Below, one piece after another: positions 1 through 37,712 of a DNA stretch of 37,712 nucleotides (positions are counted from its first letter, which is position 1; each line of letters begins with the position of its first letter). Origin of the DNA: a virus. Both the position numbers and the translations under genes were made by a program. The DNA is taken from positions 1 to 37,712 of the IMG/VR virus record IMGVR_UViG_3300020188_000003; one strand, written 5' to 3'. The notes under the pieces were generated by a model. The model was not told the DNA's origin. It saw only the letters and a list, made by a program, of their open reading frames with translations, and made no database searches.

Positions 1-127
1 AGCACGCCACCAGGCTTCAGACCATCAAGACTCTTGGCAAAGAAGTAATTGTGAATACTGAATTTGGATAAATCCTTACGCTTACCGTCATACAACTTCT
101 GGCTACCAAAGGGCGGATTGCCTATTG
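1..127. repeat. Terminal overlap, left copy
   Basis: These 127 bases are identical to positions 37586-37712. An exact 127-base match at both ends is the usual signature of a circular contig produced with a 127-base k-mer, so the unit genome is most likely 37,585 bp and circular or circularly permuted. Both copies lie inside the methylase domain of the giant gene, and joining them keeps its reading frame, which argues against a packaged terminal repeat. Confidence 0.93.
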
Positions 128-3100
128 CCAGGTCGAAATAACCGTCTGGCATAGTGAAGTCCTGGAATCCCATTGGTGTTTTAATGCTCGCACCAGGGTA
201 AAGGTGTAAGGCAATGCCTCCGGTAATGTGATCAAGCTCTACGCCGGTGATCTGACTCTTACCGCGCACGCCTGCCGGCATCATCCCTAAGAAATTACCA
301 GTACCAACTGAAGGCTCAAGCACGCGCCCACCAGAAAAACCCATCTCCTTCACCGCCTTCCAGATTGAAGTAACAATCTCCTGGCTTGTGTAGTGGGCAT
401 CCTGCGTGCTTCTGCGCGCTGCGTCATACTCAGCATCGGTAAGCAACTCTTTAAGCTGTGCCGCCTCTTTTTCCCATCCTTTTGATACCTTGCCAGCATC
501 ACCATAAAACGCTTGAGGAATGCCACCCCAACCAACGTAACGCGCAAGCGCTTGCTGTTCTTCTGGCGTAGCCTGGCGGCCTTCAGACTCAAGCGACTTC
601 AGGATCTTGATAGCTTCCAGATTATTCTTGAATTTGGTTTTCTGGCCACCCTCACCGATACCCATATCAGGCGTGATAGTGAACATCTTAGCCGGTCGCT
701 GCTCTGCACTTGTGGCCTTTTGAGTTGTATCACCCTCAGGTGTCGGCGCTTCTTCTGCTGCTTTTTCTTCAGCCTGAATTAGCTCTGCATCCCCTCTTGA
801 TACTGGTCGGCCTGCATTGCCCGGCTTTTCATCTGTAACGCTTCCTGGTACATCGGTGCCGCGCTGCTCGCCTTGTCCGGTTCGCTCTGCTCCGCTGGTG
901 GAAACAGGTGGTTCTCCCTGACCATCTGAAACGCCTCGTCCGGTTGATAGCCCTGGTTCTCCAGCTCGCTCACTTCCGCCAGTGTCTGCTCTGCCGCCTG
1001 CTTCAACGCCAGTTCCAGTGTCCCCTGCTTTTTCAGTGCTTGGTACTTGCTCGGCTGGAACTCCTGCCAGTGTTTCTTGGCCTGGCTGATCCAATTCTGT
1101 AGGTTCATTGGTTTGCTCCTGTGCTTGCTCTGGTTGCCAGGCTGCTTGTAAATCGGTGAGTAGCTTTTGCTTTTGCGACTCTGGTAAATCAGATCGTTCA
1201 ATGGCTCGCTGAACGGCCACGCCCTTTGATTGTCTGTTCTCTGCGCCTGGCTCACTGGCAACATTGTTAATACGCCCTTCAATATCTCTGCGCACTTGTC
1301 GCTGCCCTGGCGTCAAAGTGGCATAGTCAATTAAACCGGTTAACGCTTCTGCGTCATTCCACACTTGGCGAGCCGCATCACTATCAAGCTTGCCAGCCTG
1401 GCGTAACTTGTTAGCGTAATCTCTCGCCTTCATTAAATCGTTTCGCCAATCAGCTTTAGGCGTCAGTGCATCGTCAACTCGCTCGGCGGTATCTGCCACA
1501 GGAATATCCTCTGCGCTACGCTTTCCAGGCTCTGAGGCAATATCACTAGGCTGTTTCTGCTGTGCTGGTTCAGGTACTCGTCCAGGCTCCTGGCTTCGCT
1601 GCTGCTGATCACCTTGTCGTTCAACGCCTGCTGTATCCACTCTTGCATTTTCTTCACCACGCTTCTGGTTGTACTCCTGAATGCGGTTATCTCGAATGAA
1701 AACGCCCCCATCCTTTTTGAAAGCATAGGGGTCAATTTCTTTGGCCTGGTCCAATGTCATTTCACGATCAATGACGCCGGTTAGTTCCTTTCCTCGCTTG
1801 GTTGTGTGCTGAACTCTCTCAGCGCCTTCACCATAGACTGGCGCCGCATCAGCTGGTTGTGCTTCATCTTGAGCTTGTTCTTCAATTGGCGCTTCTTGCT
1901 TGGGCTCATCCTTAACTTGCTCCTTGGTCTGTTCTTCAACAACCACTTCCTGAGTAGGAACTTCAAGCGGTACATCAACATTCTCAGTCATTGCTGCCTG
2001 CTTTGGCGCGTAATCAACTACTGGCGCCGGTTTAACTCCGCGCTGTTCAAGCTTCTCTGCAACAAGCTCTGCCATGCTTTTTCGCTGCACTGGCTGCTGC
2101 TGTTGCTGAGCATTTGCAGGATCAAAGGCTTGTGCTGCCGCCTGCTCTGCTGGTGCAAACTGAGTTGCATCAACAATTTGGTTAAGAACCTCACCAAGTC
2201 GGCGCTCTTTGCTTTTTGATACATCAACACCGGATTTTACTACGGCCCCAGCACCACCCATCAAACCAGTAACGATGGTTGTTGGAACTACCTGTTTACG
2301 GAAAGCATCACCAACACTAAGCTCCTCATTGGTCATTCCGGCTTCGAGTTCAGCGCGATTCTGGCCGACTGCGGTAGCTGTTTCGGTCACATTCTCAGTG
2401 CCAAGTGTTGTCGCGGCGCGCTTAGTAATCTCCATGAGCTTTTGTTTGCCCATGCCTTTGAGTGGCGCAGTGAAAGCGCGTAAAAATACAAGGTTTCCAA
2501 CGGCTTCTGGTATCGCTTCCCATGCGCCATACTTTGTCGCGGCAGCGTCGAACTCAGCGTAAGCTTTATCCCATTCTTCTTGGGTAAGCTCACGCCCATA
2601 AATTTCTTTGGCTTTTTGGTTTAACCCTTCTTGGACGCGGCTCAAGAACTCATCACGGCTACCACGATAAGCAACAGTCCCGGCTGTTGTACCTGCCGCC
2701 ATACCTGTAGCGATTGGATTTTTGGTAACTAAACCAGTTAAGGCTCCAGCCGTAATAGCTGATGTCATTGTGCTAAGGCTGTATCCGAGAGACTTACCTA
2801 TTCCGTAGAAAGAGTCATAGTTGGGGTCTGGGTTTTCTGGCGGCTCCGGCTCAGTGTAATCAATAGCGCGGTCTAGCCATGTTTTATCCGCCGTTTCATC
2901 TCCACCACGAATGGAACGCATAACGGTATTGGCTGCGCCAGGTATGAGATCAGGCAACTCCTTGATCGTAATATCGGTGGCCTCTGCAAGCGCCTGTATG
3001 GTTGGCCTGCCTTCAGGGTTAAATACAGGGCGACTACCGCCAACGCTCTTGTAAACCTCATCGACTGACACCCCTTTCTCTTTGGCTATCTGGCGAGCCT

Positions 3101-3422
3101 GATACTCAATCCATGCGGCATCTTTGTTGGCTGGAATAATGCCTTTGATCTTGTCCCACAAGGTAGGCTCATAAGCCACCATCTGAGGACCTTCTGGCAC
3201 ATTGCGCGCAGCGCCGGTAAACCCATCTATTTCTGGCTCACCAAAAGAAAGCGCATTCGATACGCGCTGCATGATTCCTGGTTGTTCTGGCTCTGTCTTC
3301 GGTCCGTAAAGCTCATTGTGCCAGGCGGCCAACTCCTTGGCGCCCTGGGTATCCCCTGAAAGGTGTGCTTTCTCAAGTGCTGTTAGCAACTGGTCCTTTG
3401 TAGGTTGTTGGTTCTCTGCCAT
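1..3422 (-). CDS. Giant polyvalent virion protein, N-terminal part (N6-adenine methylase; continues across contig ends)
   Basis: First 1,140 codons of a 3,683-aa protein that continues at 37585 and stops at 29956; both pieces are in the same frame once the 127-base overlap is removed. The ATG at 3422 follows GAGG by 5 nt and lies 8 nt after the preceding stop. Residues 1-200 are helical, and about 211-253 are Gly/Ala-rich and hydrophobic, possibly membrane-interacting. Residues about 430-960 are mostly a Q/E/P/G-rich disordered linker with some helical islands. The methylase follows: a YVGWGG motif, SAM-binding LEPSVGTGNF at 1035-1044 and catalytic NPPF at 1102-1105. This is the family of phage and plasmid methylase-helicase polyvalent proteins (DarB-like). 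Such proteins are thought to be packaged and injected to protect incoming DNA from restriction. Position after the ejection genes fits that role. The linker also holds two nested genes in another frame. Confidence 0.9.
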   Translation of the reverse strand, partial: MAENQQPTKDQLLTALEKAHLSGDTQGAKELAAWHNELYGPKTEPEQPGIMQRVSNALSFGEPEIDGFTGAARNVPEGPQMVAYEPTLWDKIKGIIPANKDAAWIEYQARQIAKEKGVSVDEVYKSVGGSRPVFNPEGRPTIQALAEATDITIKELPDLIPGAANTVMRSIRGGDETADKTWLDRAIDYTEPEPPENPDPNYDSFYGIGKSLGYSLSTMTSAITAGALTGLVTKNPIATGMAAGTTAGTVAYRGSRDEFLSRVQEGLNQKAKEIYGRELTQEEWDKAYAEFDAAATKYGAWEAIPEAVGNLVFLRAFTAPLKGMGKQKLMEITKRAATTLGTENVTETATAVGQNRAELEAGMTNEELSVGDAFRKQVVPTTIVTGLMGGAGAVVKSGVDVSKSKERRLGEVLNQIVDATQFAPAEQAAAQAFDPANAQQQQQPVQRKSMAELVAEKLEQRGVKPAPVVDYAPKQAAMTENVDVPLEVPTQEVVVEEQTKEQVKDEPKQEAPIEEQAQDEAQPADAAPVYGEGAERVQHTTKRGKELTGVIDREMTLDQAKEIDPYAFKKDGGVFIRDNRIQEYNQKRGEENARVDTAGVERQGDQQQRSQEPGRVPEPAQQKQPSDIASEPGKRSAEDIPVADTAERVDDALTPKADWRNDLMKARDYANKLRQAGKLDSDAARQVWNDAEALTGLIDYATLTPGQRQVRRDIEGRINNVASEPGAENRQSKGVAVQRAIERSDLPESQKQKLLTDLQAAWQPEQAQEQTNEPTELDQPGQETLAGVPAEQVPSTEKAGDTGTGVEAGGRADTGGSERAGEPGLSTGRGVSDGQGEPPVSTSGAERTGQGEQRGTDVPGSVTDEKPGNAGRPVSRGDAELIQAEEKAAEEAPTPEGDTTQKATSAEQRPAKMFTITPDMGIGEGGQKTKFKNNLEAIKILKSLESEGRQATPEEQQALARYVGWGGIPQAFYGDAGKVSKGWEKEAAQLKELLTDAEYDAARRSTQDAHYTSQEIVTSIWKAVKEMGFSGGRVLEPSVGTGNFLGMMPAGVRGKSQITGVELDHITGGIALHLYPGASIKTPMGFQDFTMPDGYFDLAIGNPPFGSQKLYDGKRKDLSKFSIHNYFFAKSLDGLKPGGV
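779..1108 (-). CDS. Nested gene in +1 frame of giant gene, 109 aa, conserved-looking helical protein
   Basis: This gene of 109 aa is read on the same strand as the giant gene but one base out of phase. The ATG at 1108 is preceded by AGGAG with 7 nt spacing, as good as any ribosome site in this genome. Codon use is strongly gene-like (mostly CTG, CAG, GAG, GCG). The product begins MNLQNWISQAKKHWQEFQPS, is helical, and has a run ending MVRENHLFPP. I recall similar small phage proteins with a Trp-rich start and an E-x-Y/H-LFPP ending, but could not check. The giant protein in the same bases is Gly/Thr/Ser/Glu-rich and disordered, so this gene appears to be the ordered product. The longer open frame back to 1282 lacks gene-like composition, so I chose 1108. 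Function unknown. Confidence 0.8.
   Translation of the reverse strand: MNLQNWISQAKKHWQEFQPSKYQALKKQGTLELALKQAAEQTLAEVSELENQGYQPDEAFQMVRENHLFPPAEQSEPDKASSAAPMYQEALQMKSRAMQADQYQEGMQS
1463..1648 (-). CDS. Nested gene in +1 frame of giant gene, 61 aa
   Basis: A 61-aa product starting MQEWIQQALNDKVISSSEAR and ending LWQIPPSELTMH, in the same +1 frame as the nested gene at 779-1108. The ATG at 1648 follows GGTGA with 5 nt spacing, a good though not perfect ribosome site; the open frame extends upstream to 1735 without gene-like composition. Its codons favour CTG, CAG and AGC, and the product looks like a compact helical protein, while the giant protein here is a Q/E/R-rich low-complexity stretch. 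The short form and the Trp-rich C-terminal end recall small uncharacterised phage proteins, but no function can be assigned. It may be co-translated with, or independent of, the giant gene. Confidence 0.65.
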   Translation of the reverse strand: MQEWIQQALNDKVISSSEARSLDEYLNQHSRNSLVILPQSLESVAQRIFLWQIPPSELTMH

Positions 3423-3429
3423 CCCCGCC

Positions 3430-4317
3430 TCACTGTGAATACATTTCAAGTAATTTGTTGCGGTCTATATTACCACTTTGCCCCAAATCTTGAACCTGAA
3501 TACCAAGCTTTCTCGCTGCTTGTGTTACAGCTTGCGAGCGAGTAACGCCACCTTGGCTATAAATCTTAGCCGCTTCAGTTGCAATAGACTGGACCTTGCC
3601 GCGTGTGGCCGGGTCAAGGTTTTGAAGGTTGCCTTGCTGGTCAAACAAACCACCAAGCAACTCGCCAGCCTGGCGATACATCAATGACTCATCAGCTGAC
3701 TTTAAGCCACCATCGCCACTCGCACGCGTTAATGCGTTCTGCCGGCTTGTCTGACGGTCAAGCTCTTGGCTACTTGTTGTGCGCTCGATAACTCGGCCAT
3801 CCTTATACAAGCGGTCCTCTGTGCCAAACGTCATGCGTTCAGGGTTCTGTAGCAACTCATCAACTTGGCGAGCTCTGGCAAGCTGCATTTGAAGGAAGTT
3901 AGGATCGTATTGCTCAGGCATTTTTGCTGCGAGCTCTGGGGATACACTTTGGCGCGCAAGCTGATAAGCCTGCTCAGGGTTTTCAGACTGAAGAACATAG
4001 GCTGACATTTTGCCAACTGCATCAATATTTTCTTGCGTTTGCTGGCGCTGGCGATCATCCATCTTGCTCAATGAGTCAAGCATCTTCTTAGCTTCTTCAG
4101 GGTCAAAAGCGTTTAACTCTTGCATGGCTTGTTGATCGCCAGCTGAAGCCTTTGAGCGCAATTCAGAAAGAGCGTTACCACGCTGCCGCGCTGCATCACG
4201 ATCTTCCTTCTTCCAGTCCATCATCAACGCGTTGCTCTCGCGTGACTGACGCGCACCTTTCACGGCCTCAACGGTTCGGTAAACCTGGCCTAAGTCAATT
4301 CCAAAAGCATTAGCCAT
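3430..4317 (-). CDS. Probable internal virion / DNA ejection protein, 295 aa
   Basis: Acidic-basic, Gln-rich, almost wholly helical protein (MANAFGIDLGQVYRTVEAVK at its start) with no signal peptide or catalytic motif. It lies between the gp7-like ejection protein (3 nt upstream) and the giant virion protein (8 nt downstream), which in P22-like and Bcep22-like podoviruses is the place for proteins carried in the head and ejected with the DNA. The ribosome site is formed by the last G-rich codons of the upstream gene. Membership of an ejection complex is inferred from position and composition; I do not recognise a specific family. Confidence 0.7.
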   Translation of the reverse strand: MANAFGIDLGQVYRTVEAVKGARQSRESNALMMDWKKEDRDAARQRGNALSELRSKASAGDQQAMQELNAFDPEEAKKMLDSLSKMDDRQRQQTQENIDAVGKMSAYVLQSENPEQAYQLARQSVSPELAAKMPEQYDPNFLQMQLARARQVDELLQNPERMTFGTEDRLYKDGRVIERTTSSQELDRQTSRQNALTRASGDGGLKSADESLMYRQAGELLGGLFDQQGNLQNLDPATRGKVQSIATEAAKIYSQGGVTRSQAVTQAARKLGIQVQDLGQSGNIDRNKLLEMYSQ

Positions 4318-29938: not shown

Positions 29939-29971
29939 ATTATAACGCGCACTCCCTATTGGGAAAGCGCG
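29939..29971 (-). promoter_or_regulatory. Hairpin and TATAAT element before the tail fibre gene
   Basis: On the minus strand an imperfect stem (GCGCG/CGCGC and TCCC/GGGA around a four-base loop, 29971-29946) spans the stop of the giant gene and is followed by GTTATAATGTTTATTATTT. TATAAT at 29944-29939 is perfect, but no good -35 is present. It may be an attenuator for the giant message, a weak promoter for the fibre, or both. Confidence 0.4.
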
Positions 29972-32900
29972 CTTTCAACTTGTTCCAGGGCCTTGTTAGC
30001 CTGCTCGTAGAACTGCGCAAGTGCGTTGTTCTTCTGCTGGTACCAGTTTTCTATTCTCCTTTCCTTTTCATCCCTGGTCAGATCCGGGTTGTACTTGATT
30101 GCCGCAAGCACCGCTTCCTGGTCCTTGAATGCGCCATCAATCTGCCTAAAGGCGTTATCCATGCTGATAAGCAACTGGTTAACTTTGTCGGCTGAAAAGT
30201 CTTTCATTGGCTGCTGATCGCGTATTGCTTGTGCGGTCAGTAGGTCAAATGCAGACTTAGCGCCGGCTGCCTTTTTCTTGAGTTCAAAATAACCTTCAGT
30301 CCATTTTGTTCGATAAGGGACACGCTGCCCCTGGAATTGATAGGTTAGGTAGTCAATCGGTTCTTTAACGAATGGACGCGGCCCCCACTCTTTTTCATTC
30401 CATAGCAAGGCTTCACTGCCATCTGAGATATACGCCTCAACGTAACGCAAGTAACCTTTCATGTAATGCTCGGCCACCAATGGCGACACTCCAAGCGCTT
30501 CACCAAGATTGCGGTACAGTTGCGGCGTGCGATCAGTGAATTGATACTCGTTAGGAACGTGCATCAACTTCTCAGGGACAATAGGCGCGCCTGTGAATTT
30601 CTTATTCCTGGCCACCTCAATCATTGGCTGGAATATGCCAGGGTAATCACCAACACCAAGCGTATTAGCAAAAGTCCATGCCAGCGTCTGCGCTGCCTCT
30701 TTACCATCACGCTCCTTGATATAGTCAAGGCTTACTTCTGGTATGGTTGCGAACAAATGCCCTATATCGTATGGACGCGGAATTTTAAGAGGCTTCTCTG
30801 CACCAGGAAGGAAGATCCACCAGAATCGCGCCTTTTGGTCTGGCGTCAATGCCTGGTACCGGTCATCATCCTCATTCAGCAACCACAAGATCACTGTCAT
30901 AAGAGTTAGCACTCCACCAGCCGCCAGGAATCGCACCTTAGCATCATCAAGTTTTGCCAGGTTGCTACCCTTCATTTCACCGCGCAATTCAAATATCTCT
31001 CGCGCTGTTTTATCCAGGCCCTGAATACCGGCATTCATAAACGGAACAGTACGAAGGAACTTGGCCCACAACTCATTGCGCCCCATCTTGCTAAAGTCTG
31101 TTGCAACTTCCCTAGCCTCCCATGCAGCCTCAAGCGCATTCTTTCCAGCTTGGCGGCCACGGCGATAATCACCAAGGCGGCTACCATACTCAAATGCACT
31201 AGCAAAACGGTCATACCCCGCCAAAAACTTAGCTGCGGTATCCCACATATTGCGGCTTGGCAGATCAAGCTGTCGGCGCTTTCTGGTTTCCTCTGTTCTT
31301 GCCTCTATACGGGTACCATATCCGCCACCATGCAAACGAAACTCACGGTAAAGCTTGGTGTGGAATATGGCGTGCCCCATACCAATCAAGGTATCCCATA
31401 CTGGAATGAACTTGTTTTTACTGATCACAAAGGCGCTCAACGTATCGCGCACAGCGTTTGGACCAAGGAACTGAAGCATTGACGTTACAGTGCGGGTTTG
31501 CAGGTTCTTAACGCGGAACATGGCATTAAGCAACGCGCCAGACTTAAAGCCTCTCATACCGGTTAGCATATCCACCAGCAACGGATTGCGAACCTCAAAC
31601 CAGGTGCGCTTACCATCAATGATGGCACTATCAACGTATGTTTCTGCTGTCGTTGGCTTGTGCCCAAATGTCCAGAAGTTAAGCAGATCAGGGTTAGACT
31701 CAAGGGCCTGGGCAATATCATCAACATCAGTGATCTGCGCATCAGGATCGCCGGCCATAATCATTCCATCTTTGCTTACTGTTAAGCCAACATCAGCCAT
31801 GGCTTCAGCAATTTTTGCCGCCATCTGAGTTTGCTCAACCTTAACCAGCTTGCTATCTGGCGATAACTTAACTGCAAACAGGGAACCATCCTGGCTAGTC
31901 ATAATGTCCCGGTATAGCGTTTGCTTGGCCCTGGCAATCAATGCCGCCCTGATATTTGAGTAAAGTCCCTCAACAATGTTTTCAGCAATGTCTCGCACGT
32001 TCTGAGTGCCGCCGCTCAATCGCTTACCAATTGACGTTGTGCCAGCCTGATCACCATCTTCAAGGCGCTCTATTACCCGGTGGAATGGAACATAGTTTTT
32101 GTTGGCATCAGCAAAGGCTTGCTTCTGCTTCCCATCAATCAGGCCCATCTGCTCGTAGAAGTCCAGCATTCGCTTGTTGAACTCCTGATACTCCTTGAAT
32201 ACATCACGGAACTCAGGGTATGTAACACCAAGCTTTAACCCGGCCTCAATCTCTTGCTTTGTGAACAGCCTTTCACGGCCCTGCTTCATAAGCTCATTGG
32301 CCCGGCGCGCCTTGAAGTAATCCATAAGCAAGTCAAAACGCTTCCATCCATGTTTTGATACCGGCCAAAACACTTGGTTAAGCCCCTTGCCGTTAAACTC
32401 AAAGGTCCCATCTTCAGCAAGTGAAGGCGTGCCATCTTTCAAAATCGCTTCATGTAACGACTCTGAACCATTGATAAGCTGGAACTGCTTGAATGGGCTT
32501 AACGCCGCATCACGAACCTCACCATGAAGCGTGCGCTCAACAACCTTGGCTGCATGGATCTTATCAATTACTTCCTGTCGATAGCGCTCAAGCGGGTATG
32601 ACTGCATGTACTGGATGATCTGCTGAGACTGACTTAACTCTTTACCAGACTTGGCACGCAACTGAGCGCGAGCGCCTTGCAGGTACCACCGGTGCATTTC
32701 ATCCTGAAGCTTAACCATCTTCTTATTGAGCGTTGAATCTTCAGCAAGCACCTGCTCAAAACGCTGGGTAAACAATGGCGCCGCCGCTTTTGCCTCTGCA
32801 TAGTTTGTGAGCCATAGACGCACAAATTCAGCAAAGCCTTCTTTGTACTTCAGATTCTTCTGGCTTGTATAGCTCAGGCCGGCAACCTCATCACGATACT

Positions 32901-35900
32901 TGGTATCCTTGTATGCCCTGGTAAATCGCTTGTTGTAGCGGTAGTGCATATCAAGGTAGTGAGCCATTTCATGGGCCATAACCTCAACATCATCATAATT
33001 AGCAACACGAACTTCACTGTTATTCTTACGGTAGAAGCCAAGCTTTGACTTGCCTTTCACTTTGCCTTGATAAAGCCTTGGCCCTATAACATCCTCGACC
33101 ATAACGCGCACACCCTCACGGCGCGTTGGCTGTTCCTCTGGCTTTAACTTCACCACTCTATCACCAATGGAAAACTCATCACCTTCAGGGCGCTTAGGTA
33201 CGCCAGCCTGGCGATATGTTGGGCGCCAGTTAGGCATAGGCACATCAGCTCCAGCGTTGTACATCATTGCACTGGTGCCATCCTGCTCTATTTCTTCCTG
33301 ATCCCTGTTTTTAGGTTTCAACTCTGCAATAACCAAGGCATGACGCGCCTTAACCTTTGCAAGCTCATCAGCTTGCGACCAATCAGCAATCTGACCTTCA
33401 AGATCTGGAATGTCACGCTCAGCCTGTTTGATAAGCTCAGCCTCATTCTTGGCATCAACACTGATACGCCTAACAGTATTGGTAATGCGCATAGCCAAGC
33501 CAGTAGGATCAGCTTCAGCAATATCTGGAATATCAACCTGGTATTCCTGCTCGCCCTCTATGGTGATCACGAACTCAGCACCACTGATATTATCCAGGCG
33601 CAACTTAAAGCCAGCATATTCACCGATAGGCTTTGTCTCTTGCCCGGCATCAGCCATCTTATTGGCCGCCGCAAGCAATGCCTGGCCAGCCTCTTTGTGC
33701 TTATCGTACTTGCCGCTATTGATTGTGATAGAGAAGTCTTTTGGCGCTTTCTCTGCCTTTTTAGCATCACGCGTAAACTTCAGCATTCTATCCTTACCGG
33801 TTTCAATGCGTAGCTTCAGGCGGCGCACCTGATCTCGAATGCGGAATTGCTCGCGGTCATGCTCATCTTCAAGCTGCTCAAGCTTTCTGATCTTCTGGCG
33901 CAAGTCCATTTCCTCAAGGATAAGCGGGTTGCCACTTGAGGCCGCTTTCATTTCAGCTGCATTACTTGCCTCGCCGCCAACATCCTCAATCTCACGCGTC
34001 TTGGTATTACCCTTGCGCACCTGCTCAATGAATCGCGCCTTAGTTTCAATGGTCTGCCACATACGGCTATCAAGCGTCTGCTTGGTTGCGTAGCGGTTAA
34101 TCTCAACCTCAAATCCATCAGGGTCACGCTCATAAAGCTTGTTGCCCTGGCGAATGATACGACCTTCACGCTGTTCAAGGTCAGAAGGCCGCCATGGTGC
34201 ATCCATGTGGTGTAGCGCAACAAGGCGCTCCTGCACGTTCATGCCGGCGCCCATCTTGGCGGTAGAACCAAACAACACACGAATGCGACCACTACGAACC
34301 TTACCAAACAGTTCTTCTTTCTGAAGCTCCGTATTAGCATCGTGAATAAATGCTATCTCCTGCTCAGGAATACCCTTATTGATAAGCTTCTGGCGCAAGT
34401 CATCGTAAACACTGAAATCACCATCAAGCGCCGACAACTCATCAGGACTCATCTTGTCGAGTTCATCCTGGGCGCGCTCATCACCGTTATCTGCTTTTTC
34501 AATCAGATCACGGATTCTCGCCGCCTCTTTTGCCTTGGCGCCTTTAGGTGTGCTCAAGTCAATGAATACCAACTGAGCGCCTTTGTCTGCACTCCATTGG
34601 TCATAGATACGCTTAATGTTGTCTGCTGCCTGATTTACTTTGCTACCTTCATAGTCGCCGTACATGGCAGGGTCTATCATGCGCATATCAAGCGCCGCCT
34701 TCCTGGCGTCACTCATTATCTTCAGCATGTTATCCGCGCCCTTTTCAGGCTTCTTAGGCAAGTGCTCAGCACGCCAAACAAGACTTCCTTCAGGGTATGA
34801 CTCGCGGCCATTCTCATCGGTGATAGGCTCGCCAATATAAGCGGCCTGGTCATCACTTCGAGTAACAACAACATTCTGAGGCTTGCCGCCTTTAACCTTT
34901 GGCACCGGTAGGCGCTTGCCCTGGGCTGCCAGTTGGCGGTTAATGTCATCACGGTTGATAACATCACCAAACGATAGATAGCGCTGCATAAGCTCAGGGA
35001 TGTTCACAAATTTACTGAAGCGACTGTTTAGCTTGTAGGTGCCTGAAGGCGACAACTCCCAATCAGTAACAACCTCACCATACATGCGCGCCCATGCGTC
35101 AAAGTGCGCAATACCCTGGTCCTGCAATGCCTGGTAATCCAGGTAGCGCTGCATGGTGTACATTTCGGCCATGGTATTGCTGATCGGCGTGCCGGTGGCA
35201 AATACCACGTTATTCCCGCCAGTTTTTTCCAGGACAAACTGAGTTTTCATAAACAGGTCTGCCGCCTTCTGACTGCCTTGTGGATTACCAAGGCCGGCAA
35301 CGCGGGTCATGCTGGTGGCAAAGCCAAGGTTTTTAAACTCATGCGCTTCATCAAGGAATAGCGCATCAACACCAAGCTCACCAAAGGTTAAGTTGTCATC
35401 CTTGTTCTCAGCATCAAATAGTTTCTTCAGCTTTTCCTGAAGGCGCTCTTTCTGCTTCTCAATCTGCTTAATGCTGCGTGACTTCTGCCCGTCCTGGGCC
35501 CGGATATTCTGAATAGCCTCGTCAATGTCACGGATCTGCTGGTTGATAAAGCGCTCTTGGAACTCCTTATCCATTTCAACCTTACCAAACGATGAGTGCG
35601 CAACAATAACAGCATCCCAATCACCGGTAGCAATGCGAGCAAATAAGCGCTTACGGTTGCCTTTCTCAAAGTCCTTCTTGGTAGCTGCCAGCACATTTGC
35701 GCCAGGGTAAAGCTTGGTGAAGTCCTCCGCCCATTGCCCGACCAAGTGATTAGGAACAACAAACATCGGCTTCTTAGCTCGGCCCATGCGGCGCATTTCC
35801 ATAGCGCCAGCAACCATAGTGAAAGTCTTACCAGCACCAACAACGTGATCAAGCAAGGTTGTGCCAGACTGAACGATACGCCAAACAGCGTTAGCCTGGT

Positions 35901-37712
35901 GTGGACGCAACTTGATAATGTCGTCACTGACCTTTCCAGGGAAAGTAAGGTGCGAACCATCAAACTCACGCAAGCGATCGGTGTTGAAGGTATCGTTATA
36001 AATCCTGGTCAACCGACCACGCCGCGCATCATCCTGCCAAACCCAACGGCGAAACTCTGCCTTTAAACGCTCAACCTTTTCATTGGCCGCATTGGTGGCC
36101 GCCTCATTCACGCGTGTTGTGTTTTCGTCAATACGGTCACGCACAACAATCTGCTTTTGGTTTGCAGCTGCTGCAACAATGTCAGTAACCTGAACTCGGT
36201 CAGTACCCCAACGCGAACGCGCCGCCTCAGTTGGTACGCCATCAATAGACCATTTTGCATTGGTAGGGATATAAACAGCCTTGCCGCTTTCATTACCAAG
36301 CACATGATCAACAAACGACTTCATATCTTCACGCGGCAACCAGTGAGCACCAGGCTTAACGTCAATATCAACGGCCTCAATATCTTCAGGCTGAACCGAC
36401 TCAAGGGCCTGGACGTTGCGCTTATACTTGCTGTCTGCCTTGGCAAGCTGCTTTGCCTGGGCAAGCTTCTGCTTAACATTACCGCTAAGGTATTGATCAC
36501 GCGTTTCAAATCGGCCAGGCTCAACTTCAAACACAAGATCACCAAGCTCATTGGCAATGTATCCTGGCGTTTTGTTGTAAAGCTTAGCCATGTAATCCAT
36601 ATCAATGACGCCATACTCAGACAAGCTTGCTGCCATGGCATCCTTGGCCGTTGTCGCTTTGGTGGGCGCCTTATATGGTGACTGAGTGCGCTTGTAGAAT
36701 ATCGCCGCCTTTTGGGCGCTTGGCTTGCGTGATTGCTCGCCGGTTTTCTTCGCCATTGCTGGCGTAATTCCTTTATCGAATGATTCTTCAAGGGCTGCAA
36801 TTTGCGGCCAGGTAGGATCATCACGGAACAACCGCTTATTGGCATCTGAGTTTATTGGCCCATGAGACTTAACAAACGCGTCATATTCACGATTAAGACG
36901 CGTGCGCAACGCGTCAAGTGCCGCATCTTTCACGCCTTCAGTAAGCTGCGCCTTTCTCAAATCGGTGAATACATCACGGACCTTTATCATTCCCTCAACG
37001 CGCTGGCGCGCTTTATCGCTTGCAAACTCAACTGGCTCAGCCTGGACGCTACCAAGCTCATTATCCTGGCGCACCATAACCTGGCCGCCATCCATGAACA
37101 TACTTCCAACCTTGACGTTATCAACACTGGTGGATAGCTTAACTTCCTCTTTTGCTGGTTCTGCCTTTGACTCTGCCATAATACCTTTTGGTAGCTTAGC
37201 CAAAGCCTCACGCAACAACGCGCCGGTGTCCTGACCTTCACGCGCTACAAGCGCCGGGTCATTTGGGCCATACATAGAACCGTATGCACCCCACTCACCA
37301 AGCATCATGTCGGGATTTTTTACAAAGTATTCATTCAGTGGTGTTTCAATGCCTTTGGCGTCTTTCACTGTTTCAGTGCGCTTCCATGAAGGTCCTTTTC
37401 TTGGTGTGCCTTCTTCGCGCTTTTGAAGGAATACAATATCAGTTGTTACTTCTGTCCCGGCGTTCTTCAGGAAGGCGTTGTTAGGCAAGCGAACAGCGCC
37501 AAGGAAGTCTGCACGATTAGCCATGTACTCACGCGCTGCCTGATTGCTCTGACCATCCATAAGACGGTTAGATACGACCATTGCCAGCACGCCACCAGGC
37601 TTCAGACCATCAAGACTCTTGGCAAAGAAGTAATTGTGAATACTGAATTTGGATAAATCCTTACGCTTACCGTCATACAACTTCTGGCTACCAAAGGGCG
37701 GATTGCCTATTG
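29956..37712 (-). CDS. Giant polyvalent virion protein, C-terminal part (methylase end, SNF2 helicase, metalloprotease-like, LPD38)
   Basis: Continues from position 1. Numbering by the full 3,683-aa protein: end of the methylase (NPPF at 1102, repeated in the overlap), a YLSGNVKQKLAQAKQ segment typical of such methylase-helicases near 1500, Walker A GAGKT at 1724-1728, DEAH at 1886-1889, and helicase motif VI QREGRIIRQGN near 2278. HEMAH at 2679-2683 with a downstream EGFAEF near 2721 forms a metalloprotease-like domain. The end holds a PFMNAGIQGLDKTAREIF segment near 3320, as in LPD38, and a hydrophobic stretch (LTLMTVILWLL) near 3365. Such proteins guard injected DNA by methylation and translocation. 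It may also be cleaved into parts. Only one start (3422) is supported. Confidence 0.92.
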   Translation of the reverse strand, partial: IGNPPFGSQKLYDGKRKDLSKFSIHNYFFAKSLDGLKPGGVLAMVVSNRLMDGQSNQAAREYMANRADFLGAVRLPNNAFLKNAGTEVTTDIVFLQKREEGTPRKGPSWKRTETVKDAKGIETPLNEYFVKNPDMMLGEWGAYGSMYGPNDPALVAREGQDTGALLREALAKLPKGIMAESKAEPAKEEVKLSTSVDNVKVGSMFMDGGQVMVRQDNELGSVQAEPVEFASDKARQRVEGMIKVRDVFTDLRKAQLTEGVKDAALDALRTRLNREYDAFVKSHGPINSDANKRLFRDDPTWPQIAALEESFDKGITPAMAKKTGEQSRKPSAQKAAIFYKRTQSPYKAPTKATTAKDAMAASLSEYGVIDMDYMAKLYNKTPGYIANELGDLVFEVEPGRFETRDQYLSGNVKQKLAQAKQLAKADSKYKRNVQALESVQPEDIEAVDIDVKPGAHWLPREDMKSFVDHVLGNESGKAVYIPTNAKWSIDGVPTEAARSRWGTDRVQVTDIVAAAANQKQIVVRDRIDENTTRVNEAATNAANEKVERLKAEFRRWVWQDDARRGRLTRIYNDTFNTDRLREFDGSHLTFPGKVSDDIIKLRPHQANAVWRIVQSGTTLLDHVVGAGKTFTMVAGAMEMRRMGRAKKPMFVVPNHLVGQWAEDFTKLYPGANVLAATKKDFEKGNRKRLFARIATGDWDAVIVAHSSFGKVEMDKEFQERFINQQIRDIDEAIQNIRAQDGQKSRSIKQIEKQKERLQEKLKKLFDAENKDDNLTFGELGVDALFLDEAHEFKNLGFATSMTRVAGLGNPQGSQKAADLFMKTQFVLEKTGGNNVVFATGTPISNTMAEMYTMQRYLDYQALQDQGIAHFDAWARMYGEVVTDWELSPSGTYKLNSRFSKFVNIPELMQRYLSFGDVINRDDINRQLAAQGKRLPVPKVKGGKPQNVVVTRSDDQAAYIGEPITDENGRESYPEGSLVWRAEHLPKKPEKGADNMLKIMSDARKAALDMRMIDPAMYGDYEGSKVNQAADNIKRIYDQWSADKGAQLVFIDLSTPKGAKAKEAARIRDLIEKADNGDERAQDELDKMSPDELSALDGDFSVYDDLRQKLINKGIPEQEIAFIHDANTELQKEELFGKVRSGRIRVLFGSTAKMGAGMNVQERLVALHHMDAPWRPSDLEQREGRIIRQGNKLYERDPDGFEVEINRYATKQTLDSRMWQTIETKARFIEQVRKGNTKTREIEDVGGEASNAAEMKAASSGNPLILEEMDLRQKIRKLEQLEDEHDREQFRIRDQVRRLKLRIETGKDRMLKFTRDAKKAEKAPKDFSITINSGKYDKHKEAGQALLAAANKMADAGQETKPIGEYAGFKLRLDNISGAEFVITIEGEQEYQVDIPDIAEADPTGLAMRITNTVRRISVDAKNEAELIKQAERDIPDLEGQIADWSQADELAKVKARHALVIAELKPKNRDQEEIEQDGTSAMMYNAGADVPMPNWRPTYRQAGVPKRPEGDEFSIGDRVVKLKPEEQPTRREGVRVMVEDVIGPRLYQGKVKGKSKLGFYRKNNSEVRVANYDDVEVMAHEMAHYLDMHYRYNKRFTRAYKDTKYRDEVAGLSYTSQKNLKYKEGFAEFVRLWLTNYAEAKAAAPLFTQRFEQVLAEDSTLNKKMVKLQDEMHRWYLQGARAQLRAKSGKELSQSQQIIQYMQSYPLERYRQEVIDKIHAAKVVERTLHGEVRDAALSPFKQFQLINGSESLHEAILKDGTPSLAEDGTFEFNGKGLNQVFWPVSKHGWKRFDLLMDYFKARRANELMKQGRERLFTKQEIEAGLKLGVTYPEFRDVFKEYQEFNKRMLDFYEQMGLIDGKQKQAFADANKNYVPFHRVIERLEDGDQAGTTSIGKRLSGGTQNVRDIAENIVEGLYSNIRAALIARAKQTLYRDIMTSQDGSLFAVKLSPDSKLVKVEQTQMAAKIAEAMADVGLTVSKDGMIMAGDPDAQITDVDDIAQALESNPDLLNFWTFGHKPTTAETYVDSAIIDGKRTWFEVRNPLLVDMLTGMRGFKSGALLNAMFRVKNLQTRTVTSMLQFLGPNAVRDTLSAFVISKNKFIPVWDTLIGMGHAIFHTKLYREFRLHGGGYGTRIEARTEETRKRRQLDLPSRNMWDTAAKFLAGYDRFASAFEYGSRLGDYRRGRQAGKNALEAAWEAREVATDFSKMGRNELWAKFLRTVPFMNAGIQGLDKTAREIFELRGEMKGSNLAKLDDAKVRFLAAGGVLTLMTVILWLLNEDDDRYQALTPDQKARFWWIFLPGAEKPLKIPRPYDIGHLFATIPEVSLDYIKERDGKEAAQTLAWTFANTLGVGDYPGIFQPMIEVARNKKFTGAPIVPEKLMHVPNEYQFTDRTPQLYRNLGEALGVSPLVAEHYMKGYLRYVEAYISDGSEALLWNEKEWGPRPFVKEPIDYLTYQFQGQRVPYRTKWTEGYFELKKKAAGAKSAFDLLTAQAIRDQQPMKDFSADKVNQLLISMDNAFRQIDGAFKDQEAVLAAIKYNPDLTRDEKERRIENWYQQKNNALAQFYEQANKALEQVESALSQ
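37586..37712. repeat. Terminal overlap, right copy
   Basis: Identical to positions 1-127. When this copy is removed the reading frame of the giant gene runs unbroken from 3422 through position 1 to 29956 (11,052 nt, divisible by three), which supports a closed circle rather than a terminal repeat. Confidence 0.93.

Follow-up and report, generated by a model that had tools for sequence, protein, structure and literature searches.

Introduction

A small open reading frame that lies completely inside a giant phage gene, on the same strand and in another frame, raises the question whether it is a gene of its own or a chance product of the sequence around it. To our knowledge, fully embedded same-strand genes have seldom been proven in Bacteria or their phages. 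The case analysed here comes from the viral IMG/VR record IMGVR_UViG_3300020188_000003, positions 1–37,712 (37.7 kb), a stretch which is called the window in the following.

The outer gene

Positions 1–127 of the window are identical to positions 37586–37712, over about 127 nt. The record is therefore circular, with the giant gene running across the join. This gene is encoded on the minus strand, from 3449 to 1 and then from 37712 to 29956, and its product comprises about 3.7k amino acids. The part at 1–3449 (minus strand), which runs off the low end and resumes at the high end, encodes the N-terminal part and, according to a Pfam match to Eco57I, the beginning of the methyltransferase (MTase) domain. 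The conserved start of this domain (3–698, minus strand) is located directly 3′ of the nested frame and served as an unbiased probe. The remainder of the gene (29956–37712, minus strand) is an open frame with Pfam matches to the MTase, a SNF2/DEAD-type helicase and LPD38. The closest named relative of the window is the Vibrio phage VvAW1, whose near-identical gene is named DarB-like antirestriction in RefSeq. With an Eco57I-type MTase, a SNF2/DEAD-type helicase and an LPD domain, the outer gene encodes a DarB-like polyvalent protein.

The nested reading frame in the window

The nested frame (779–1108, minus strand) begins with an ATG at 1108–1106 and ends with a TAA stop codon at 781–779. Its first nucleotide falls on the second position of a giant codon, i.e. 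it is read in the +1 frame, and it is wholly contained in the giant ORF. The complete 109-codon frame which the initial annotation had proposed as a same-strand gene could thus be found, together with the Shine-Dalgarno (SD) sequence AGGAG that it had placed 7 nt before the ATG (1116–1120, minus strand). Across the overlap the translated giant product is of low complexity (PGQETLAGVPAEQVPSTEKAGDTGTGVEAGGRADTGGSERAGEPG...), again as described before. If the giant protein of the window is kept and its synonymous codons are resampled, 2.5% of the trials yield a +1 frame that has a start codon and is open over the nested length. The gene-like codon usage that had also been claimed is a weak discriminator; the nested frame ranks near the 90th percentile among +1-frame windows.

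Homologues and recurrence of the arrangement

Homologues of the nested protein with 45–65%, for the most part 45–60%, identity were detected by tblastn in phages of Klebsiella, Erwinia, Pseudomonas, Agrobacterium, Sinorhizobium, Ochrobactrum and Microcystis, and a family-specific motif, EAWxMVRExYLFPPEE, is conserved in the phage proteins. Scans for the family yielded 102 loci, 76 of them viral and 26 in bacterial genomes; in 96 of these loci a longer ORF encloses the homologue, in one identical relative frame. An unbiased set was composed of 80 viral loci chosen by the MTase domain only and not by the nested gene. Here 58 of 80 loci possess the nested gene, in a few cases with a weak match; its frame is always the same and its place, with few exceptions, is just upstream of the MTase domain. 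Most of the remaining 22 possess a divergent small gene in the same place and frame. The initial annotation had expected such a gene to be lost by most annotation pipelines; it is indeed annotated in none of the phage records examined with their annotation, where only the giant gene is shown.

Some giant genes contain two small genes in tandem, both in the +1 frame (L232, 3216–3479 and 3522–3833; L233; L236); of the two, the upstream one is under weaker constraint (omega 0.66). Besides, a second nested family, of the NRWMLGWPKRV type, was compared with the first by hhalign (probability 64%, E 7e-5), which is merely suggestive of homology between the two; a profile comparison of TnpV with this second family was not significant. 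In the Bacteroides phage BKO1-TP3 (L252, 2597–2926) the ORF found in the +1 frame ahead of the MTase domain specifies an acidic protein which looks unrelated and may represent another nested family. Two further loci (L244 and L245, near 3810–4007) have a 66-amino-acid +1-frame ORF with an SD-like site at the position of the nested gene, resembling neither nested family.

Selection in the two frames

Conservation of the nested protein was compared with a control in which the giant protein was kept and synonymous codons were resampled, for 80 relatives forming 3,160 pairs. Pairwise identity in the nested frame was 0.52 against an expected 0.18 and exceeded the expectation in 3,160 of 3,160 pairs, so that far more nested codons are conserved than in the shuffled giant-frame control. 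Neither of the two outcomes that the initial annotation had named as refuting a nested gene, a lack of phage homologues and a lack of such an excess, was thus observed, and its interpretation is supported. In the reverse comparison the identity of the giant frame in the overlap was 0.367, against 0.331 expected if the nested protein alone is kept.

Omega values were determined for six clusters by a simple counting method, in which sites were grouped according to their consequences in the two frames. Within the overlap omega was 0.19 for the nested frame (95% interval 0.14–0.25) and 1.01 for the giant frame (0.75–1.37); these intervals come from a bootstrap over alignment columns and the sequence pairs are not independent, but the effect is large and is repeated in independent clusters. 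The Vibrio cluster which holds the window gave 0.08 for the nested and 0.69 for the giant frame. The divergent nested genes among the other 22 loci, main copies only, showed the same order (nested 0.12–0.42, giant 1.0–1.6). In the flanks of the same genes the values are reversed, with 0.82–0.94 for the +1 frame and 0.13–0.33 for the giant frame. It follows from this reversal that the frame under selection switches at the overlap.

The frame might also be open by chance, as a consequence of the linker composition of the giant gene. Given the composition of the giant protein, the +1 frame stays open in about 35% of the resampled relatives on average. However, all 80 aligned relatives are open and possess starts where 11.5 are expected, and neither the identity of 0.52 against 0.18 nor the nested omega of 0.19 has a counterpart in the control flanks. 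Barring an alignment artefact, the omega reversal refutes chance, and it recurs in independent clusters, so that the probability left to this explanation is negligible. Conservation of the DNA as an RNA structure or a regulatory element, instead of a protein, would agree with a conservation visible at the DNA level even among distant phages. Substitutions in the overlap, however, fall mostly at nested third positions (2146 versus 997 and 838), and such a codon periodicity leaves an RNA element next to no probability.

The comparisons thus indicate that the nested gene is under strong purifying selection beyond that imposed by the outer frame, and that the giant linker in the overlap is close to neutral at the amino acid level. 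The initial annotation had supposed that the linker may owe its composition to the nested gene, as a by-product, and the same values support this: the giant protein is hardly more alike than the nested protein alone would make it, and its omega is about 1. As judged from anatomy and evolution, 1108–779 is almost certainly a real protein-coding gene that occupies the +1 frame within a DarB-like linker, with the giant linker as a passenger. Mainly, this linker would have to stay open across the better-constrained nested gene.

Fold of the product and its relation to TnpV

An AlphaFold2 model based on 59 relatives predicts helices at residues 3–17, 19–28, 31–51 and 56–67 with a pLDDT of about 90. 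A further helix at 84–103 is less certain. The ordered helical product that had been proposed therefore holds for residues 1–70, but not for the poorly ordered C-terminal third. In a Foldseek search the model had no significant match in the PDB, and its only strong viral match was Q8W6J4, which we take to be the PBC5 protein. Searches of NCBIfam, PADLOC and PDB sequences with the nested protein gave nothing useful.

The protein of the window matched no Pfam family at E values up to 1 and stays below the cut-off of TnpV (PF14198), which is passed by two divergent nested members (L124, L098). A profile comparison of the nested family with TnpV by hhalign resulted in a probability of 90% and an E value of 1.5e-6 over about 50 aligned columns. 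At the family level the nested proteins can thus be regarded, on profile evidence, as remote relatives of TnpV, and the gene at 779–1108 is predicted to encode a TnpV-like helical protein, an assignment resting on translation, homologues, selection and the AlphaFold2 model.

The PHROGs label 'endolysin' (phrog_938) was rejected as an artefact. It was traced to the C-terminal end of orf33 of the Sinorhizobium phage PBC5, which is in frame with the nested gene, and this in-frame run probably seeded the misleading match.

Translation start

An SD match of at least 4 nt precedes 97.5% of 80 homologous nested starts, whereas the background rate among ATGs in this frame is 20.7%. In 15 of the 80 phage cases an in-frame stop codon lies at most five codons before the nested start, and in the clostridial cluster ICE_A such stops are found 3–18 nt upstream. 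The nested gene hence possesses a conserved ribosome-binding site and start codon of its own, as the SD site at 1116–1120 already suggests for the window. The SD frequency and the close upstream stops in some relatives favour internal initiation over frameshifting.

Programmed frameshifting would provide the N-terminal half of the giant protein with a TnpV-like tail. It finds some backing in PBC5 (L005, 8733–9309), where, unlike in its relatives, this half passes into the nested frame shortly before the ATG of the nested gene and continues through that gene in frame, and in PHROG 938, which ends with a TnpV-like domain. The conserved Met start, the SD sites at 97.5% of starts and the stops within five codons (15/80 phages) or 3–18 nt (ICE_A), which leave almost no room for a shift, make frameshifting very improbable. 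PBC5 is the single case seen with this configuration, and its in-frame run could be a real fusion, or else result from a mutation or a sequencing error. Most probably, the nested protein is translated from the mRNA of the giant gene by internal initiation, given its own SD site and ATG.

Clostridial elements, plasmids and stand-alone copies

Outside phages, TnpV genes were taken from the order to which a clostridial genome belongs. At about one-third of the loci read, TnpV is itself nested, at the same place and in the same relative frame as the phage gene. These nested genes are located inside polyvalent genes, several of which extend into the same MTase module. Two sets of these nested genes had omega values of 0.10 and 0.34 compared with 1.18 and 0.85 for the giant frame, the best set being 0.10 versus 1.18. 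A Listeria plasmid carries a nested TnpV (E 4.8e-12) in the same place and frame, and +1-frame ORFs with SD sites are present at the position of the nested gene in Stutzerimonas, B. multivorans and Campylobacter plasmids. In the B. multivorans plasmid (L259, 3193–3498) the nested gene is annotated by PGAP (WP_261508081.1) and the methyltransferase is given a downstream start, although the larger frame extends far upstream of this point without a stop. The nested gene is absent from the Anabaena, the Acetobacter and one Streptococcus record.

Stand-alone copies without a giant gene exist as well (L106, L109, L120), so that a role as a partner is not obligatory. The copy of Corticibacter (L106) is situated near a likely mobilisation gene, and 201 genomes of its family contained no copy beyond the known one. 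In Pseudidiomarina (L120, 2974–3762, and L121) a likely membrane segment is joined to a TnpV-like domain, with McrB-like genes beside it; a divergent HTH regulator also adjoins in L120. Variovorax (L122, 3001–3318) has a stand-alone relative divergent to a neighbouring hsdM-like gene. The copies near hsdM-like or McrB-like genes fit an anti-restriction setting and also an independent role.

Possible functions

The nested product could be an accessory or regulatory partner that assists the MTase-helicase module in shielding the incoming DNA of the element from restriction. Such a role, the likeliest of the functions considered although itself more doubtful than probable, is suggested by a location immediately before this module, which phages share with clostridial elements and some plasmids, and by a divergence which correlates with that of the MTase domain (Mantel r 0.82), a correlation that simple co-inheritance also predicts. 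An independent anti-restriction or anti-defence protein which merely shares the locus with the giant gene is somewhat unlikely. The carriers, i.e. phages, clostridial elements and plasmids, would suit it, as would the stand-alone relatives adjoining hsdM-like (L122) and McrB-like (L120, L121) genes; against it, the divergence tracks the MTase domain (r 0.82) and the position directly before this domain is kept across element types.

For TnpV of Tn4451 an action in excision has been postulated, no more than that (PMC3158075). A recombination or excision factor of the Xis type would agree with the remote TnpV relation and with the mobilisation gene near the Corticibacter copy (L106). The Xis role of TnpV itself is merely a postulate, however, and in phages as in clostridial elements the nested gene remains associated with the MTase-helicase module, so that an Xis-like factor appears improbable. 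A further role may be considered. The DarB-like protein gp69 of phage JC1 was reported in virions (PMC9144972), so the nested protein could also help to handle or package the giant protein.

Taken more broadly, it may be common for DarB-like/SNF2-type MTase-helicase genes, whether in phages, integrative elements or conjugative plasmids, to hide a fixed-frame gene in the linker before the MTase domain; the product of this gene would be a dedicated anti-restriction partner, and the giants would have been joined through it. This proposal as a whole is put forward tentatively, as a plausible reading. The giant genes would then have arisen from two neighbouring genes by read-through of a small gene in another frame.

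Comparison with known systems

Accounts of DarB-like proteins (PMC5512222, PMC9144972, PMC6606913, PMC6630229) mention no other-frame gene. No report of the nested gene was found in the papers searched; an earlier mention elsewhere, for instance in the founding description of Bcep22, is possible.

The nested gene recurs across hosts of several phyla and at least three types of element, and sequence comparison reveals which frame is selected. Low-complexity linkers of DarB-like giants would be explained as by-products, and annotation either misses a widespread gene or gives its neighbour a wrong start. In addition, the unexplained TnpV family becomes tied to anti-restriction genes, a concrete handle on the working of MTase-helicase proteins is obtained, and a route to giant genes, by fusion across a small other-frame gene, is suggested.

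With its MTase, helicase and LPD domains the outer gene belongs to the DarB-like/PLxRFG polyvalent MTase-helicase proteins, such as DarB of P1 and gp75 of Bcep22. In P1 darB, unlike in the giant gene of the window, the MTase match is close to the N-terminus, so that little linker is left there. With TnpV (PF14198), a protein of Tn4451-type transposons, the nested family has a central helical core in common, whereas the N-terminal segment and the C-terminal part of TnpV are outside the profile alignment.

Embedded out-of-frame genes are a known kind of arrangement, e.g. Rz1 inside Rz. There, too, a larger gene contains a second one on the same strand, complete and in a different frame, which has a start site of its own; both products are lysis proteins. 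The arrangement in the window differs from Rz/Rz1 in that, across the overlap, its outer frame is close to neutral, and in that the inner gene recurs across types of element.
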